From Planctomyces sp. (GTDB lineage Bacteria > Planctomycetota > Planctomycetia > Planctomycetales > Planctomycetaceae), in NCBI GenBank assembly GCA_002702685.1, contig PABD01000113.1:1-33106 (forward strand): a DNA stretch of 33,106 nt, given 5' to 3'. The translations under genes were made by a program, and so were the position numbers. The notes beneath the pieces are model-generated. The model was not told the origin of the DNA. It did not search any database and saw only the letters and a list, made by a program, of their open reading frames with translations. Positions 1 through 9,500 of this stretch are shown here, piece by piece. Positions within the stretch are counted from its first letter, which is position 1, and every line of letters starts with the position of its first letter.

Positions 1-3000
1 CAAGAGGTTCAGATGGACCTCTTTGCCCGCGAATTCCTGCTTCCCCGTAGCGTAATGCGTCGACTCCACGTTGAAGAGGGATTGACGGCATCGGCAATCG
101 CAGACCGATACAAAGCGCCGCATGCAGTGGTCGCTCAGCAACTGTTTGATGCACTGCTACTCCCGCCAAGTACACGTTTGCAAGCGGACTCTCCTCCACC
201 GAAGAATCCGCACCCAGACCAACTCAAGGCCATCGCTCATCGTGGAAAGGCATTTTTGCTCGAAGCTGGGCCTGGCACAGGCAAGACGCAGACGTTAGTC
301 GGACGCGTAAGCGACCTCTTGGTCTCGGGAGTGGAACCGAGTCGACTTCTAGTACTTACGTTCTCGAACAAGGCTGCGGGCGAGCTGTCTGAACGGGTTG
401 CGGCTCAGCATCGTGAGGCCGCAGCAGCAATGTGGATCGGCACCTTTCATGCTTTTGGGCTTGATCTTATTCGGCGATTTCATGATCGCTTAGGATTCTC
501 CGCTGAGCCGCGACTACTTGATCGGACCGAGGCGATCGATTTACTCGAAAGCGAGTATCCTCGGCTAGAGCTGGTGCATTTCAAAAACCTCTGGGACCCT
601 TCGCAGCCACTTAGCTCAATCTTAAGTGCGATCTCTCGGGCTAATGACGAAGTTGTAAATGCAGAGGCATATCGAACGCTCGCAGAGGCGATGAAAGGTC
701 CTTCTGCCACTCCAGAAGAGATCAAAGCCGCCGAGCGGAGTATCGAAGTAGCGCGAGTATTTGCCGCTTACGAACGCCTTAAGCTGGAAAACGGCTGCGT
801 CGATTTCGGCGATCTCGTATCGATGCCGGTTCGTTTGTGCGAGAGCTTTCCGGACATCCGCGAGCATCTGTGCAGCCTTTACGAGCACATCCTTGTTGAT
901 GAATTCCAGGATGTGAATCGTGCAAGCGTCCGTTTGCTCAAGGCAATGACAAAGAGCGGAGAGAACCTTTGGGCGGTGGGCGATGCCAAGCAGTCGATTT
1001 ACCGATTTCGTGGTGCGTCGTCATTCAATATGAAGCGATTCGACCTGGATGATTTTCCGGGCGGCGAGCGCGGTCGACTCACGGTGAATTATCGCAGCGT
1101 TGCCGAGGTTCGTGATTCATTTGTCTCTTTCGCATCGGATATGAGTGTGGTGGCCGGGGGAGAAGTCGCTCTGGAGGCAGAGAGAGGCGAGTCAGGTTAC
1201 GTGCCGGAGCGACGTGAAGTTGGGACCGACGAGGAGGAAGTTGTTGCGGTTGCTGAGGCAATTGAGGAAATGCGCAAGGCCGGACACAGTTATCGCGACC
1301 AAGCGATTCTTTGTTCGGGAAACGACAAATTGGCTCGCTTTGCCCGCCGCCTCGAAAAACTTGGCATTCCGGTCCTCTACCTCGGGAGCTTATTTGAGCG
1401 GAGTGAGATCAAGGACCTGCTTTGCCTTCTTTCGCTCGTCGTCGATTGTCGCGCCATGGGCCTGTTGAGATTAGCAGCGCTGCCGGAGCACAGCGTCAGC
1501 CTGGCAGACATCGATCGAGTACTGAGTCACCTGCGCGAGCACGGCTGCGAGCCAAGGCAATGGGTCAACGATCTTACTGGTATCGAAGGGCTAACGACGG
1601 ACGGCTCGAACGGCCTGAAGAAGATTGCTGCATTGCTCGAAGGTTCCGAGATTTCGGCTGATCCATGGAGGCTACTTGCCGAGGTGCTACTCGATCGAAG
1701 TCGAATCGTTGCAGATATTGCGTCAGCAAGCGATATCCAATCTCGATCGCGTGGAATTGCTATCTGGCAGTTCATGAATTTTCTTCGTCTTCAACCGCCC
1801 GGCAGTGGCTTGCCAATCACCAGAGTGCTGGAGCGGATTCGCAGCCTTGTGTTGCATTCTGACGAACGGGATCTTCGGCAACTTCCGTCATCGGCGCAGA
1901 GCATAGATGCCGTGCGGTTGATGACGATGCACGGCAGTAAGGGCCTGGAGTTCGAAGTCGTACACATTCCAGGGCTAACCTCAGCAAGCATGCCGCGATC
2001 GCCCAATGCTTCTTTGGCCAAAGGGATTTCGCCACCTGATGGAATGATTGACGGTGCATCAGGATCTGGGCTCGATGCGGCACGCGCTGCTATTGCTGAA
2101 GAGCAAGAGTGCCTGTTTTTCGTGGCGATCTCCCGTGCGCGCGACCGCCTATTCTTGTACAACCCAACGCTGACCTCCAACGGCCGGAATCGACCTCGCT
2201 CTCCGTTTCTTGACCGACTTGGAGGTCACGTGCGCGCCCGCCGGATTTCACCAATTACAGCTCTCCCACAGGATGAGGGCGAAATTCCGATACCAATTGC
2301 CCTCGATGGCAACTGCAGCTTTACCAACCACCAGCTTGCGCTTCATGAGCGGTGCCCGAGACGGTTTCTGTACACGCACATTCTCGAAATTGGCGGACGC
2401 AGAACTGAGTCCGCCTTCATGCGGCTTCACGTCGCGGTACAACAGGTGGTCAACGACGTGTGCCAATCCGGTGGTGGTCCGCCGTCAGCAGACGACATTG
2501 CGGCCAGTCTTGCTGCCGCTTGGCAGTCCCACGGACCGGTAGACCACGGCTTCAGCGAGGATTATCGAAGAATCGCTCAGCAGTTGGTCCGATACTTTAT
2601 TGAGTCGGGCTCCGATATGGCTCATTCGCCAGTGGCAGAGCTGCGTCTAGCGGTTCCTGGCGGCGAGATCATCGTCACTCCTGATCAAGTCCTCAGAGAC
2701 GAAAATGGGACTGTTCACTTTCGCCAAGTCAGAACCGGACACAAGAAGTCGAAGGAAGGAGATAGCCTTTCTACTGCTGCGTTTCATCTTGCCGCAAGCG
2801 AGCACTCTCCCGGATGCACCGTCCAGCTTGTGCATTTGGGGGATGAGAAGGTCACTTCGATTGAAATGACCGAGCGTGTCCTCAAAACTCGCAGGGGGGC
2901 GATCTCTGAGATGCTTGCTTCGGTCAAGCGGGGATATTTCCCACTCGAAGAAAGTATCACGTGCCCCCGGTGTCCGGCATTTTTTGTCTGCGGAAACCTG

Positions 3001-3036
3001 CCCGCCGGTCCTCTCGTGAAAAAAATGGCGGAATAA
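1..3036 (+). CDS. UvrD/Rep-family superfamily 1 helicase, 5'-partial, with N-terminal ImmA/IrrE-like tail and C-terminal AddB-like Fe-S/PD-(D/E)XK-type region
   Basis: Frame is open from base 1 (QEVQMDLFAREFLLPRS...). SF1 motifs: AGPGTGKTQTL (I), LVDEFQDVN (II), VGDAKQSIYRFRGA (III), MTMHGSKGLEFEVVHIPGL (V), FFVAISRARDRLFL (VI). C-terminal HERCPRRFLY plus CPRCPAFFVC. Annotated start at 13 is probably internal. Confidence 0.9.
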   Translation, partial: QEVQMDLFAREFLLPRSVMRRLHVEEGLTASAIADRYKAPHAVVAQQLFDALLLPPSTRLQADSPPPKNPHPDQLKAIAHRGKAFLLEAGPGTGKTQTLVGRVSDLLVSGVEPSRLLVLTFSNKAAGELSERVAAQHREAAAAMWIGTFHAFGLDLIRRFHDRLGFSAEPRLLDRTEAIDLLESEYPRLELVHFKNLWDPSQPLSSILSAISRANDEVVNAEAYRTLAEAMKGPSATPEEIKAAERSIEVARVFAAYERLKLENGCVDFGDLVSMPVRLCESFPDIREHLCSLYEHILVDEFQDVNRASVRLLKAMTKSGENLWAVGDAKQSIYRFRGASSFNMKRFDLDDFPGGERGRLTVNYRSVAEVRDSFVSFASDMSVVAGGEVALEAERGESGYVPERREVGTDEEEVVAVAEAIEEMRKAGHSYRDQAILCSGNDKLARFARRLEKLGIPVLYLGSLFERSEIKDLLCLLSLVVDCRAMGLLRLAALPEHSVSLADIDRVLSHLREHGCEPRQWVNDLTGIEGLTTDGSNGLKKIAALLEGSEISADPWRLLAEVLLDRSRIVADIASASDIQSRSRGIAIWQFMNFLRLQPPGSGLPITRVLERIRSLVLHSDERDLRQLPSSAQSIDAVRLMTMHGSKGLEFEVVHIPGLTSASMPRSPNASLAKGISPPDGMIDGASGSGLDAARAAIAEEQECLFFVAISRARDRLFLYNPTLTSNGRNRPRSPFLDRLGGHVRARRISPITALPQDEGEIPIPIALDGNCSFTNHQLALHERCPRRFLYTHILEIGGRRTESAFMRLHVAVQQVVNDVCQSGGGPPSADDIAASLAAAWQSHGPVDHGFSEDYRRIAQQLVRYFIESGSDMAHSPVAELRLAVPGGEIIVTPDQVLRDENGTVHFRQVRTGHKKSKEGDSLSTAAFHLAASEHSPGCTVQLVHLGDEKVTSIEMTERVLKTRRGAISEMLASVKRGYFPLEESITCPRCPAFFVCGNLPAGPLVKKMAE

Positions 3037-3119: not shown

Positions 3120-3755
3120 ATGAACGACAAAGGACAGGGCCAGCCACAAGGCCCGAAATACACGATTGACATCGAGGGGACTGCCTATCCCTGGGACAAG
3201 GACACGATCACGACGGAGGAGATTGCTGCTCTTGGTGGTTGGGAGGCGACTGTCGGTGTGATTGAAATCGACAAGGACAACAACGAGCGGACTCTTCAGC
3301 CGGGCGAAGTTGTGCAGCTCAAGCCTGGCATGGGCTTTTCAAAGAAGATCCGCTGGAAGCGCGGTCATCTGCTCGAAGAGCGACTCGATCGCGAGTTGCA
3401 AATGCTTCGGAGCAGATACCCGACCGCCACCCGTGACGGGATGTGGTTTCTCGTCCCGGACTATCCGCTGCCCGCCGGCTGGAGCCACGCGAAAGTAAAC
3501 GTCGTCGCGTACCTGCGAGCTGGTTATCCCGGCACTGGGCCCTACGGGATTTACATTCCGCAGGATCTTCGCCACGGCAACGAATACCCTGAGAACTATC
3601 GAAATGTGGCAGAGCTGCAGCCGCCTTTCGGTGGCACTTGGGCTTTCCTGTCCTGGGAAGCGGAGCAGTGGTTCGCCACTGCGGAGCCCCAGGGGGGGCA
3701 CAATGTCTTGACCTGGGTTGACGGATTCGCAACACGCTTTCGGCAGGGTCGTTGA
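3120..3755 (+). CDS. Ubiquitin-like (multiubiquitin-type) domain fused to prokaryotic E2-like (family E type) domain
   Basis: ATG at 3120 within the 2961 ORF. N-term KYTIDIEGTAYPWDKDTITTEEIAALGGWEATVGVIEIDKDNNERTLQPGEVVQLKPGMGF (beta-grasp Ubl-like), then E2-like VPDYPLPAGWSHAKVNVVAYLRAGYPGTGPYGIYIP...PPFGGTWAFLSW. Genomic context JAB-E1. Confidence 0.75.
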   Translation: MNDKGQGQPQGPKYTIDIEGTAYPWDKDTITTEEIAALGGWEATVGVIEIDKDNNERTLQPGEVVQLKPGMGFSKKIRWKRGHLLEERLDRELQMLRSRYPTATRDGMWFLVPDYPLPAGWSHAKVNVVAYLRAGYPGTGPYGIYIPQDLRHGNEYPENYRNVAELQPPFGGTWAFLSWEAEQWFATAEPQGGHNVLTWVDGFATRFRQGR

Positions 3756-3757
3756 TC

Positions 3758-4291
3758 ATGAAAGCTCAACCGATTCTTGACATCGACCGGGGCAGCTACA
3801 CAGAGATTGTCCGCTACGTACTCCCCGGAGACTCTCGCAATGAGGAAGCCGTGTTCGTATTCGCCCGCGTCGACGACATCGGCGTCTTTACCCCAATTGA
3901 ACTCTACTTTGTCCCACCTGAAGGTTTTGTTCATCGTTCGCCATTTTTTCTGGAACTGACCGACGACACTCGGGCCGCAGTAATCAAACGGGCGCACGAT
4001 TTGACCGCATCGGTCCTCGAGATCCACTCACACCCGTCGCAATTCCAAGCAGAGTTCTCCGAAAGCGATATACGGGGCTTTCATGAATTCGTGCCCCATA
4101 TGCTTTGGCGCCTGAAGCGGCGTCCATACGCAGCGATTGTGGTCGCAAGAAGTTCGTTTGATTCCTTGGCATGGTTCGAGTCAGAGGTTGCGCCTGTCCC
4201 GATGGTGCTCCGCTTTGAAGATGGGGCGATTCATGCACCTACCGGTACAACTCACTCCACTTGGGGCCAGGAGGAAACAACATATGAATGA
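3758..4291 (+). CDS. JAB/JAMM (Mov34/MPN/PAD-1) metallopeptidase
   Basis: JAMM-like motif EIHSHPSQFQAEFSESD; upstream acidic NEEAVFVF; located between Ubl-E2 and E1. ATG at 3758; alternative TTG at 3752 overlaps the upstream stop. Confidence 0.82.
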   Translation: MKAQPILDIDRGSYTEIVRYVLPGDSRNEEAVFVFARVDDIGVFTPIELYFVPPEGFVHRSPFFLELTDDTRAAVIKRAHDLTASVLEIHSHPSQFQAEFSESDIRGFHEFVPHMLWRLKRRPYAAIVVARSSFDSLAWFESEVAPVPMVLRFEDGAIHAPTGTTHSTWGQEETTYE

Positions 4292-5159
4292 TGAACGGCT
4301 TAACCGAAACGAAATGTTCTTTGGCAAGGACGGCCAAGATCGAATTCGAGCGACAACGTGCGCTGTCGTCGGCGTAGGAGGTCTCGGCACTCAGGTCGTG
4401 CAGCAACTGTCATTACTCGGAATTGGTGCCCTGCGTTTGATTGACAGCGAAGAGGCCGACACCACGAATCGAAATCGTTACATAGGGCTCCGACACGACG
4501 ATCCCGTTCCTGGATTCCGAAAGGTGGACCTGGGCGAACGGTTGGTAAAAGGAATTGATCCGACCATTCAGGTCGAGAAGGTCTTCGACTCATTTGTTAG
4601 CGAGGCGGGTTTCGCCGCGATTCGCTCCGCCGATTGGATTTTTGGCTGCCTCGACTGTGAAGGGGCTCGGCTTATCCTCACTGAGCTATGTTCAGCATAC
4701 GGTCGACCTTACTTCGATCTAGCGACCGACATCAATCCGCAGGTAACGCCACCAGCGTACGGCGGGCGTGTTTGTGTTTCGCAGGAAGGTTACAATTGTC
4801 TCGTCTGCTTGGACGTACTTGATGTGGAGGAGGCAGCGCGCGACCTGGAAGGTGAAGCCGAGCGTCGAAATCGCGAGGCGATTTATGGAGTAGCTCGTGC
4901 CGCGATGGGGCGGTCAGGGCCTTCGGTGGTATCAATCAACGGAGTGATCGCCTCGATTGCTGTCACTGAGTTCATGGTGGCGGTAACGGGGTTACGCAAA
5001 CCAAACGGCATCAGCACGTACTACGGCCATAATGGTAAAGTGACCGTGAGTATGGACTCACCCAGACAAAACTGCTGGTATTGCAGCTTATGGGAGCAGG
5101 GATCAAAGGCGGATGTCGAAAGACATCTCCGTAATGGAATCGGGAAGGTGCTTCGGTGA
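4284..5159 (+). CDS. E1-like / ThiF-family adenylyltransferase
   Basis: Nucleotide-binding VVGVGGLGTQVVQQLSLLGIGALRLIDSEEADTTNRNRY; paired zinc-ligand motifs NCLVC and NCWYC; GPSVVSINGVIASIAVTEFM. Start overlaps the JAB stop by 8 nt. Confidence 0.9.
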   Translation: MNDERLNRNEMFFGKDGQDRIRATTCAVVGVGGLGTQVVQQLSLLGIGALRLIDSEEADTTNRNRYIGLRHDDPVPGFRKVDLGERLVKGIDPTIQVEKVFDSFVSEAGFAAIRSADWIFGCLDCEGARLILTELCSAYGRPYFDLATDINPQVTPPAYGGRVCVSQEGYNCLVCLDVLDVEEAARDLEGEAERRNREAIYGVARAAMGRSGPSVVSINGVIASIAVTEFMVAVTGLRKPNGISTYYGHNGKVTVSMDSPRQNCWYCSLWEQGSKADVERHLRNGIGKVLR

Positions 5160-5252: not shown

Positions 5253-6530
5253 ATGTCCGACGTGCGCTCGCGATCATTTCGATTCATTCACGCTGCCGAT
5301 CCCCATCTAGACAGCCCACTCCAGGGATTAGAATGTCATGATGGCGCACCAGTTAGCATGCTTCGCAGCGCTACAAGACACGCGTTTGAAAAGATGGTGC
5401 ATCTTGCAATCGACGAGGCGGTCGATTTCGTGCTGATTGCAGGTGACCTCTACGACGGCGATTGGAAGGACTACAGCACAGGCCTGTTCTTTCGCAATCA
5501 GATGGTCCGTCTAAAGACCAACGACATTCCGGTCTACCTCATTGCCGGAAATCATGACGCGGCGTCGGTTATTTCGAAAAAACTCAGCTTGCCTGACAAT
5601 GTGCATGTTTTCTCCACGCGTGCCCCAGAGTCAATCGAGTTGGCCGAGTTGCCTGTGGTGATTCATGGCCGTGGGTTTCCCAATCGCGCCGTTCCCGAGA
5701 ATCTGGCACTCGAATATCCAACTGCAATTGCAGGGAAGTTCAATGTCGGCCTGTTGCACACCAGCCTGACGGGACGAGTTGGCCACGACACCTATGCCCC
5801 GTGTTCCGAACAGGATCTACGGAGTAAGGGGTACGACTACTGGGCCCTGGGACATGTCCATCAGCCCGAGGTGGTTAGTGAAGACCCCTGGATTGTATTT
5901 GCGGGAAACTGCCAGGGACGCCACGCCCGGGAGACGGGACCGCGCGGCTGCCAGCTCGTCACCGTTAATGATTCGCTCGAAGTTGAGAGCGTCGATTGGC
6001 GCACGTTGGATGTGGTGCGCTGGCAAGATGTGCGCGTCGACTTCGACGGGCTGGAAAAAGAAGCTGATGCGTTTCAGCGTATTCGCAAGTCGCTTGCTGA
6101 TGCTGTCGAGAAGTCCGAGGGACGCTTGTTAGCATCCAGGATCGCGCTGATCGGGACCTGCCATTTGCATGGAAGCCTGCATCGGGATGCACAACGCTGG
6201 CTGGCCGAGATTGCGGGGATCGCGCAGGATTTTGGCGAAAACTGCGTGTGGATTGAGCAGGTCAAGGTGGCCACCTCACCGGTGTATGACATCAGTGAAT
6301 TGGCGGAGCGTGATGCCCTGACACGAATTGTGCTCGAAACGCTGGAAAAAGAGACCGACGACTTGAGTGACATGCCGGTTGACATCACCGAGATGCTGGA
6401 CGTTCTGCCAACATACGTGCGGGGCGAGGTGGAAGAGCAATGGAGCGTTGAACAGCGTGCAGAACTTTTAGGAGATGTGCGTGCCATCATCCTGGAGTCA
6501 CTCAAAACGAAAGGTGGTAACAACCCATGA
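5253..6530 (+). CDS. yhaO-like: Metallophosphoesterase / DNA repair exonuclease, SbcD/YhaO-like
   Basis: Calcineurin-like motifs FIHAADPHLDSPLQG, LIAGDLYDGDW, IAGNHD, GLLHTSL, ALGHVHQPE; followed by YhaN-like ATPase with 4-nt ATGA overlap. Confidence 0.9.
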   Translation: MSDVRSRSFRFIHAADPHLDSPLQGLECHDGAPVSMLRSATRHAFEKMVHLAIDEAVDFVLIAGDLYDGDWKDYSTGLFFRNQMVRLKTNDIPVYLIAGNHDAASVISKKLSLPDNVHVFSTRAPESIELAELPVVIHGRGFPNRAVPENLALEYPTAIAGKFNVGLLHTSLTGRVGHDTYAPCSEQDLRSKGYDYWALGHVHQPEVVSEDPWIVFAGNCQGRHARETGPRGCQLVTVNDSLEVESVDWRTLDVVRWQDVRVDFDGLEKEADAFQRIRKSLADAVEKSEGRLLASRIALIGTCHLHGSLHRDAQRWLAEIAGIAQDFGENCVWIEQVKVATSPVYDISELAERDALTRIVLETLEKETDDLSDMPVDITEMLDVLPTYVRGEVEEQWSVEQRAELLGDVRAIILESLKTKGGNNP

Positions 6531-9500
6531 GATTTCAGCGACTGCACATTCCCGCCTTTGGCCCGTTTACGAATCTGGAACTGTCGTTCCCGTCAACAAC
6601 ACATGACTTGCATGTGATCTTCGGCGAAAACGAAGCCGGAAAGAGTTCGCTGCTGCGGGCGATTCGCGATCTGTTGTTCGGAATTCATGGTCAGTCTTCC
6701 GACAATTTCTTGCACGAGTACAAGCAGCTTCGCCTCCTGGGTGAAATTGAGAATCGGATTGGTGAGCGATTGGTGTTTCAGCGCCGTAAGGGCAACAAGA
6801 ACACACTTCTGCACGAAGATGGAAGTCCACTGTTGGATAGTGCCCTCCGACCATTTCTGGGCAGCGTTGATCTAGACTATTTTTCGACGATGTTTGGGCT
6901 TGGGAGCAGCGAACTGCGCGAGGGTGCCGTGCACCTTCTCAAGGGAGAGGGAGAGATTGGCAATGCGCTTTTCTCGGCCAGCCTCGGAGGCACGCCCATC
7001 CAGCGTGTCTTGGATGCGATGGTGGCCGAGTCCGAGCTGTTTTTCAAAGGCCGGGCGACAGCCAATGTGTCAATCAGGCCAGCGGCGACCCGTTACAAGG
7101 ATCTTTTGAAACAATGTCGCGAAGCTACGGTCAATGCCGAAACATGGGATCAGTTGGAAAGAGACCTCGCGGAACAGTCTACAGCAAAGAAGACCCTTGA
7201 GGACGAGATAGACCGCATCTCACGAGAGATCGCCTGGATTGACCGCTGCGAGGATGCTTTGCCGAGCGTCGGACGTTTGAACGACGAAACGAGATCACTG
7301 AGCGAGCTTCCCGCAATGCCGGAAGTCGCCAGCGATTTTGTGGAGCGGACGAGAGCCGCCCGTGCTGGCTACGCGGCGTCCAGTGAGAAAGTTCGGGTGC
7401 TCACGGATCAGATTACGCGACTAGAAAGTCAACTGGAGAGTTGTGTGGCGTCCCCAAACGTCTTGGCCGAAGCGGACGCCCTCGATGTACTCCACCAGAA
7501 TCTAGGCGCTTATCGTGAGCGGAAGAAGTCGCTCACGAAGCTGAAGGAGGAATTGGCTGGCATCGAAGTAATGTTGCGAGCGGGAATGAAAAGCCTTGAA
7601 TGTCCAGGGGGATCTGAGTCGCTAGAGGCATTTCGGCTGAGCAGTGCTGTGCAGTTAAGTGTCGAAGAGGCTGCGAGTGCTCTGCAGTCCGCCCTGAGTA
7701 ATCATTCCGCCCATGGAGTTAAAGCGGAAGAGTTGAAAGCAGATATAGAGAATGATGAGACCGAGTTGGCGTCGCTCCCGGAAGCGGATCTGACGCCTCT
7801 CCGAGAAGCGCTGGCGGATGCCGCGGAGGCCACAGAAGCCAATCAGATGCTTGCGGTTAGTCAGATGGCGGTCGATAAGTTGATCCGTGTCATTGCAGCC
7901 GAGCGAGCCCTAGTGCCAGGTGTTCCCGAGGATCTGGATGACGTCTCCCGACTTGCCGTACCTGCTCCTGCCACTATTCGTAGGTTCCGCGATCGGTTTG
8001 CCAACTTGGAGCGCGATCTCGGGCTTACCAATAATCTGATCCGTGACGAAAAGGAAACCGTCGGTGGATTGGAGGACGAACTGCGCCGTCTTGAGCGTCG
8101 CGGGGAATTGCCGTCCGAAGAGTCTCTCAAGCAGGCCAGAGGGCATCGAGATCATGGTTGGCAATTGGTGCTCGCGGAGTGGAAGGGCGAGGGTGCGACG
8201 GAAGAGTTAGATCCCGCATTACCGCTGGTGGAGGCCTTTCCCCAGGCGATCAGCAAGGCGGACAACATCGCGGATCAATTGCGATCGGATGCCGAAGCGG
8301 TCGCGCAAGCCGAGGAAAAGCGTCTGCAGGTCCAGAACAGCCAGAGGAAAATCACCGAGGCAAAGGAGTCACTCGCATCACTCCAGCGCGAGTTCGAAGG
8401 CTGTCAGGCCTCGTGGGAGTCAGAATGGGCTCCTATCGGTGTCGTTCCTCGCTCACCCGACGAGATGGAGGAGTGGCGGGAGAACTGGGTTCGGCTCCGA
8501 GAGACAATCACTAAGCTGAGAGAAGCGGAAGCGGAGTTCAGTTCCAAGAGTAAGAAAGTTGAAAAAGCCAGGACTACTTTGGCAACTGCTTTGATGGAAT
8601 CTCCCGAAAAGCCGTATTCGGTGCTGTTCGAGGCCGCGAGAAACAGGGTCCAGAAAGGGGAGGAATCAACAGGCCAGCGAAACGCCGTCGGAAAACGGCT
8701 TGCCAAGTTGAGAACTGAACTCGCAAGACTTGAACAAGAATCTGCTGGTCTATTCCCGGCAGTCCAAACGGCGGAAGCAAACTGGAAGCTGTTGTGTCGG
8801 TCCGTGGGCTTGTCGGAGGATACGACTCCCAAAGCAGGCCTAACGTTGCTGCACGAAAGAAAGGAACTCCTTACAAAGTTTGATAGGTGGACCAAGTTAT
8901 CCGGCGAAGCCGAAAGCACGGCAGCCGACATCCAGCGGTATGAGCAGAGTGTATCCACACATGCGACGTCGCTTGGGATCGAGGCGGACCTTACCGAGTC
9001 CCAAGAAGCTGGGCTGTGGAATGCCCTTTCGCAGGCTAGGGATGCCCAAACACGGCATGACCAACTGACCTCTCAGATCCTCGATGCCACGACTGAACTG
9101 ATGGACGCGAGACAGGAGGAAACGAACGCGAAGCAAGCCTTGCAGGAGTTAGTGCGATTGTCCCAGTTAAGGGACACGGAAGAACTGGAGCCCCTGCTCG
9201 CAAACTTGGAGAAGCGCTCGATTATACAAGATCGGATCGACAGTCACCGAGAGACACTTGGCGGACTGGCGCGGGGCCAAAGTTTGGATGATTTCATCTT
9301 GCGAGTTCAATCTGAGAATGCTGATGATTTGCCCCAGCGAAAGACCCATTTGGAAGCAGACAAACGAACGAAGATTGCGGACCTTCAGGAAGTTCAGTCG
9401 GCATTGGACACGCTGGACCGTAAGAAGAAGGAACTTGAGAAGGCTGGCGACACGGCTGCGGATTTTCGGCAGCAGGCGGAATCTGTGGCAGCAAAAATGA

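Follow-up and report, generated by a model that had tools for sequence, protein, structure and literature searches.

A planctomycete Bub-type operon with serine at the catalytic-cysteine position of its E2-like domain

The window analysed here, a 33,106-nucleotide stretch of DNA from a Planctomyces sp. (contig PABD01000113.1), contains an operon encoding a protein in which a ubiquitin-like (Ubl) domain is joined to an E2-like domain without a single cysteine. Judged from the alignment of its homologues, this Cys-less E2 is a maintained trait, with Ser and Cys alternating at one site. The module as a whole is, on sequence grounds, a member of the known Bub (bacterial ubiquitination-like) pathways, within which it forms a distinct subclade with variant gene content; given this membership, the absent Cys characterises the family and is no defect. 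The module probably carries out Bub-type conjugation without a catalytic Cys, the Ubl passing through an oxyester on Ser178.

Results

The features of the operon are collected in Table 1. The ATG start of the Ubl-E2 gene is backed by an 87%-identical planctomycete homologue, whose alignment begins at the same Met. The first-pass annotation of this DNA had described the product as a Ubl-E2 fusion devoid of Cys, and both statements are borne out: the 211-aa translation contains 0 Cys, and a Multi_ubiq Ubl is followed by an E2-like domain with BubB as its best fold match. At the Cys frequency of the neighbouring window genes (1.08%), the chance of finding 0 Cys in 211 aa is about 0.10. Such an absence is not rare by count and was dropped as stand-alone evidence, so that the finding must rest on position. 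The Multi_ubiq match (PF14452) exceeds the Pfam cut-off, as for a BubA-type Ubl; direct BLASTP against the third Citrobacter Ubl gave no alignment.

The border between the two domains is conserved in an informative way. In the fused loci, the KRG motif stands immediately ahead of the E2 domain. In two other loci (L007 and L008) the Ubl ORF terminates in ...KRG and in a third (L006) in ...KRGAR, the E2 domain being encoded in each case by a separate ORF. In a Citrobacter plasmid, one ORF holds both BubA and BubB, yet the solved BubA chain matches it no further than the Gly that precedes BubB. Since this junction is kept whether the domains are fused or split, and coincides with the end of the BubA chain, the window protein is best read as a precursor predicted to be cut after Gly82.

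According to sequence and model comparisons, the C-terminal half of the product has an E2 fold and belongs to the Prok-E2_E/BubB family. Its match to Pfam Prok-E2_E (PF14462, residues 107-158) remains under the cut-off (E 0.0047, 17-19 bits against a cut-off of 25), yet three other searches agree on a BubB-type domain. Its closest PDB sequence is Citrobacter BubB (phmmer, 6e-4), which is matched at 6e-29 by a profile of 27 homologous E2-like domains; the ranks after BubB, all non-significant, are mostly E2-fold proteins (UBE2L6, a Pex4-type E2, FANCL). For an AlphaFold model of the E2 domain built from 4 sequences, of medium confidence (mean pLDDT 67.6, pTM 0.68), Foldseek ranks BubB first (prob 1.00, TM 0.55, E 1.2e-3), and the lower, non-significant matches include the GCN2 RWD domain and UBE2L6. 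The fold search, which could have revealed a fold other than E2, thus returned BubB. A model of the whole fusion (3 sequences) was set aside, its C-terminal half of the E2 lying at pLDDT <50. The domain is not a canonical E2 (UQ_con): it has 0 Cys, and aligning it with UBE2D2 reveals no HPN motif.

The position of Ser178 carries most of the argument. Homologues were gathered from whole genomes, from plasmids and from one viral contig. In the 41 distinct ones that cover the site, the column contains 34 Ser, 7 Cys and no other residue, and the next-best Ser+Cys column of the alignment reaches only 24%; L068, whose weak match falls short of the site, was excluded from the count. The Ser is borne by the motif PPFGGTWAFLSWEAEQW. 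In a global profile-profile alignment with canonical human E2 sequences, the Ser178 column pairs with the catalytic Cys of four canonical E2s, and the invariant Trp past it pairs with the canonical E2 Trp. The earlier guess that the Ser of an FLSW segment sits at the E2 active site was therefore correct by position, as in Bub, where Ser likewise occupies the E2 nucleophile position; the conservation proposed there as a check is given by the counts above, and the nearest relatives, in which a catalytic Cys might have been found, carry Ser.

The seven Cys forms (L009, L010, L014, L032, L033, L063 and L066; motifs CYES, CIHx and CMYV) make up a sister group, mostly from planctomycete genomes, with two from haloarchaeal plasmids. 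Five Cys-type operons are represented in the unrooted E1 tree, where they form one clade (97/95), and the Ser/Cys distribution is explained by a single change. The codons at the site are TCN for every window-type Ser and TGY for every Cys checked.

The two neighbouring genes encode a JAB peptidase, the sole deconjugase candidate found in the operon, and an E1. The best PDB match is Citrobacter BubCD for the E1 (1e-13) and, weakly, the BubCD N-terminus for the JAB; both are thus homologous to BubCD, here encoded by separate, overlapping ORFs. The window E1 falls in its own subclade of the E1 tree (7 rows, 97/95), apart from classical BubCD. In an alignment of 29 E1s, 28 span the crossover loop, the window E1 included, and all of these lack a Cys there; Cys is widely conserved only at the CxxC...CxxC zinc ligands and at the FGC-D position (Cys122 in the window E1), the latter being kept in 26 of the 29. 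With neither a loop Cys in the E1 nor any Cys in the E2, there is no canonical catalytic Cys in either enzyme of the operon. A sulfur-carrier MoeB/ThiF assignment was discarded, as Pfam shows ThiF only, with no rhodanese domain, and the crossover loop has no Cys.

The genes of the unit run in the order IrrE-UvrD-PD-(D/E)XK, Ubl-E2, JAB, E1, YhaO/SbcD-like and YhaN/SbcC-like, followed by a hairpin, and the order in the homologous locus L003 is identical. An IrrE peptidase also lies upstream of the Ubl in two more planctomycete loci, one of which has a sigma-70 region 2 protein as well.

Table 1. Features of the Ubl-E2 operon in the window
Feature	Position	Strand	Basis
UvrD helicase with C-terminal PD-(D/E)XK nuclease	13..3036	+	N-terminal IrrE peptidase domain cut by the contig edge, whole in L003
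Ubl-E2-like fusion, putative precursor of BubA-BubB type, 211 aa	3120..3755	+	Pfam, PDB sequence and profile matches, Foldseek
Ubiquitin-like domain Multi_ubiq, residues 14-74	3159..3341	+	Pfam PF14452, E 6.6e-7, over cut-off
Gly82, predicted last residue of mature Ubl (KRG, then E2)	3363..3365	+	Fused and split homologous loci, solved Citrobacter BubA chain
E2-like (Prok-E2_E/BubB-like) domain, residues 83-211	3366..3752	+	Homologue alignments, profile match, Foldseek
Ser178 (TCC), E2 catalytic-Cys position, predicted acyl acceptor	3651..3653	+	Homologue column, canonical E2 alignment
Trp184, invariant Trp past the nucleophile position	3669..3671	+	Homologue alignments; pairs with Trp downstream of Cys in canonical E2s
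JAB/JAMM peptidase, BubD-like, motif HSHPSQFQAEFSESD intact	3758..4291	+	Pfam Prok-JAB E 8.7e-5, under cut-off; BubCD N-terminus match
E1-like ThiF-fold adenylating enzyme, BubC-like, CxxC...CxxC Zn ligands	4284..5159	+	Pfam ThiF 3e-30
YhaO/SbcD-like metallophosphoesterase nuclease, same operon as Ubl-E2	5253..6530	+	Pfam; gene order as in L003
YhaN/SbcC-like AAA_27 ATPase, same operon as Ubl-E2	6527..10033	+	Pfam
Perfect 17-bp inverted repeat, then T run; probably terminates the unit	10260..10299	+	

Several further observations were made in and around loci of this kind. In G000, the genome that carries the window, a second, distant YhaN (29-35% identical) is split across two contigs (C126 and C194), with a YhaO-like gene adjacent on C126. 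On a Tenderia plasmid (L005, 5335-7427), two genes with no Pfam match lie directly upstream of the Ubl-E2 cassette. In another Bub operon (L025, 4855-6303), a kinase that resembles aminoglycoside phosphotransferases and carries a TCAD9 domain stands between the E1 and DUF6527 genes; the same kinase annotation recurs in L026 and L027, and operons of the L025 type form a third Ser-type subgroup. Elsewhere in the window (28421-30670), a sulfatase-like protein apparently runs into a glycerophosphodiester-phosphodiesterase-like domain, as judged from motifs seen by eye.

Discussion

An order of events in the pathway can be proposed as follows. The fusion protein would be a precursor consisting of the Ubl (residues about 1-82) and an E2-fold transfer domain, and the neighbouring JAB protease may cut it after Gly82. 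The terminal Gly so freed would be adenylated by the E1, adenylation of this residue being what E1 enzymes of the family do. As the E1 has no crossover-loop Cys, it might pass the Ubl straight from the adenylate to Ser178, giving an oxyester instead of the canonical thioester; we infer such direct transfer as the simplest reading. The Ubl would next be moved to a nucleophile of a target protein, from which the JAB could later remove it.

The first-pass annotation had also offered a UEV-like non-catalytic scaffold, and the E2-like domain might indeed be an inactive UEV/RWD-like module that only positions the Ubl or the target, while the Ubl goes straight from the E1 to targets. The missing Cys would fit such a role, individual members of the family weakly match Pfam RWD and UEV, and Iyer et al. 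2006 called domains of this kind inactive E2/RWD-like (PMC1779556). However, a UEV or RWD domain would be expected to lack a conserved nucleophile where the Cys normally sits, whereas here the column aligned to the catalytic Cys is strictly Ser/Cys in 41 diverse homologues and is the only such column in the alignment; a scaffold has no need of a nucleophile-capable residue at exactly that site. Because of this strict column, we regard the scaffold as an unlikely explanation, and an oxyester on Ser178 as the favoured one.

Two features of the window-type proteins count against the Ser178 oxyester: the His that follows the Ser in classical Bub (WSRH) is missing from the window-type clade, and the HPN motif is not recognisable in the window-type E2-like domain. 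The Ser could instead be structural, capping for example an active-site hairpin between conserved Trp residues, with Cys122 of the E1 or a target side chain as the acyl acceptor. The Trp-rich motif around the Ser and the retention of Cys122 in 26 of the 29 E1s agree with such an arrangement, but a Cys at the FGC-D position is common in sulfur-carrier E1s too, and alternation with Cys alone would be unexpected of a structural Ser; we find this account improbable. Much less credible still is that the window protein is a degenerate copy of a Cys-type E2. Homologues of that type do exist, but the Ser is common to close and distant homologues, the nearest at 45-84% identity, and the intact operon is conserved in L003; the conservation of the Ser refutes this reading. 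Transfer through Ser178 thus remains the explanation that we prefer.

The operon context suggests a role in DNA damage or defence. One could tentatively imagine, as a somewhat speculative extension, a distinct Bub subfamily that couples Ser-based conjugation to the processing of DNA ends, the Ubl tagging or controlling the UvrD-nuclease and/or the SbcCD-like YhaO/YhaN pair, an IrrE-type peptidase serving as the DNA-damage switch, and YhaO/YhaN being swapped between Bub and CBASS among related genomes. In one relative (L046, G823:C30, 5604-19999), YhaN, 78% identical to that of the window, and YhaO adjoin CBASS genes in place of Bub, namely a CD-NTase (PADLOC Cyclase, E 1e-158) and a SAVED effector; a DEAD/SNF2-type helicase and a dynamin-like GTPase are also present. 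As the CBASS case was seen once, exchange of YhaO/YhaN between defence systems is a lead and not a result. Among viral contigs, the window protein and its E1 had no relatives, one classical BubB being found there, and no relatives were found in phage records.

What makes the module worth pursuing is that Ser and Cys alternate at one site, so that a Ser-to-Cys swap would be informative on oxygen- versus sulfur-based ubiquitin-like transfer, and that a ubiquitin-like pathway shares one operon with DNA-repair nucleases, the same nuclease pair being tied to CBASS in a relative.

Among known systems, Bub is the closest. The 2026 work of Ye et al. is said to report a non-thioester intermediate in Bub. 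The primary Bub papers cited in PMC13373217 are those of Ye et al. 2026 and Gong et al. 2025, and literature searches, whose reach excluded both, returned no text describing the Bub mechanism. The Bub family comprises hundreds of operons (544 identified), often under DNA-damage regulators, and phage protection by them had not been demonstrated as of 2026 (PMC13373217). Structures of Citrobacter BubA, BubB and BubCD are available in the PDB (9ea4, 9ea5, 9ea8, 9eae and 9eav). The window module shares with Citrobacter Bub a Multi_ubiq Ubl and an E2-like domain in one ORF, a Ser on the E2 Cys position, an E1 with no crossover-loop Cys and a JAMM protease, and its E1, E2 and JAB all find their best PDB match there. 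Unlike Citrobacter Bub, it has its JAB and E1 as separate genes, an SW rather than an SRH motif and a single Ubl instead of several; it has no DUF6527 gene nearby and adds IrrE-UvrD-nuclease and YhaO/YhaN genes. DUF6527 is found in classical Bub loci; none was found in G000, G226, G065 and G357, four genomes with window-type loci, an absence that is weak evidence in G000 because G000 is 66% complete, and in G004, a fifth such genome, the copy lies on another contig.

Bil and the CBASS E1-E2 systems resemble the window module in Ubl or Ubl-like tagging, in their E1/E2/JAB logic and in their defence setting. Those systems rely on a catalytic Cys. Operon type 6e of Iyer et al. 2006, with a Cys-less C-terminal E2/RWD-like domain fused to beta-grasp repeats, and the Prok-E2_E family (PF14462) share with the window a C-terminal Cys-less E2-like domain and a beta-grasp domain beside JAB and E1; the domain was judged inactive in 2006 (PMC1779556), whereas the Ser/Cys column argues otherwise, and the window copy is below the family cut-off. 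It is therefore already known that a Cys-less E2-like domain can be fused to Ubls (2006, PMC1779556), and Bub is structurally characterized. What is less ordinary, as far as the compared loci indicate, is a subclade with separate JAB and E1 genes and no DUF6527, joined to IrrE-UvrD-nuclease and YhaO/YhaN.
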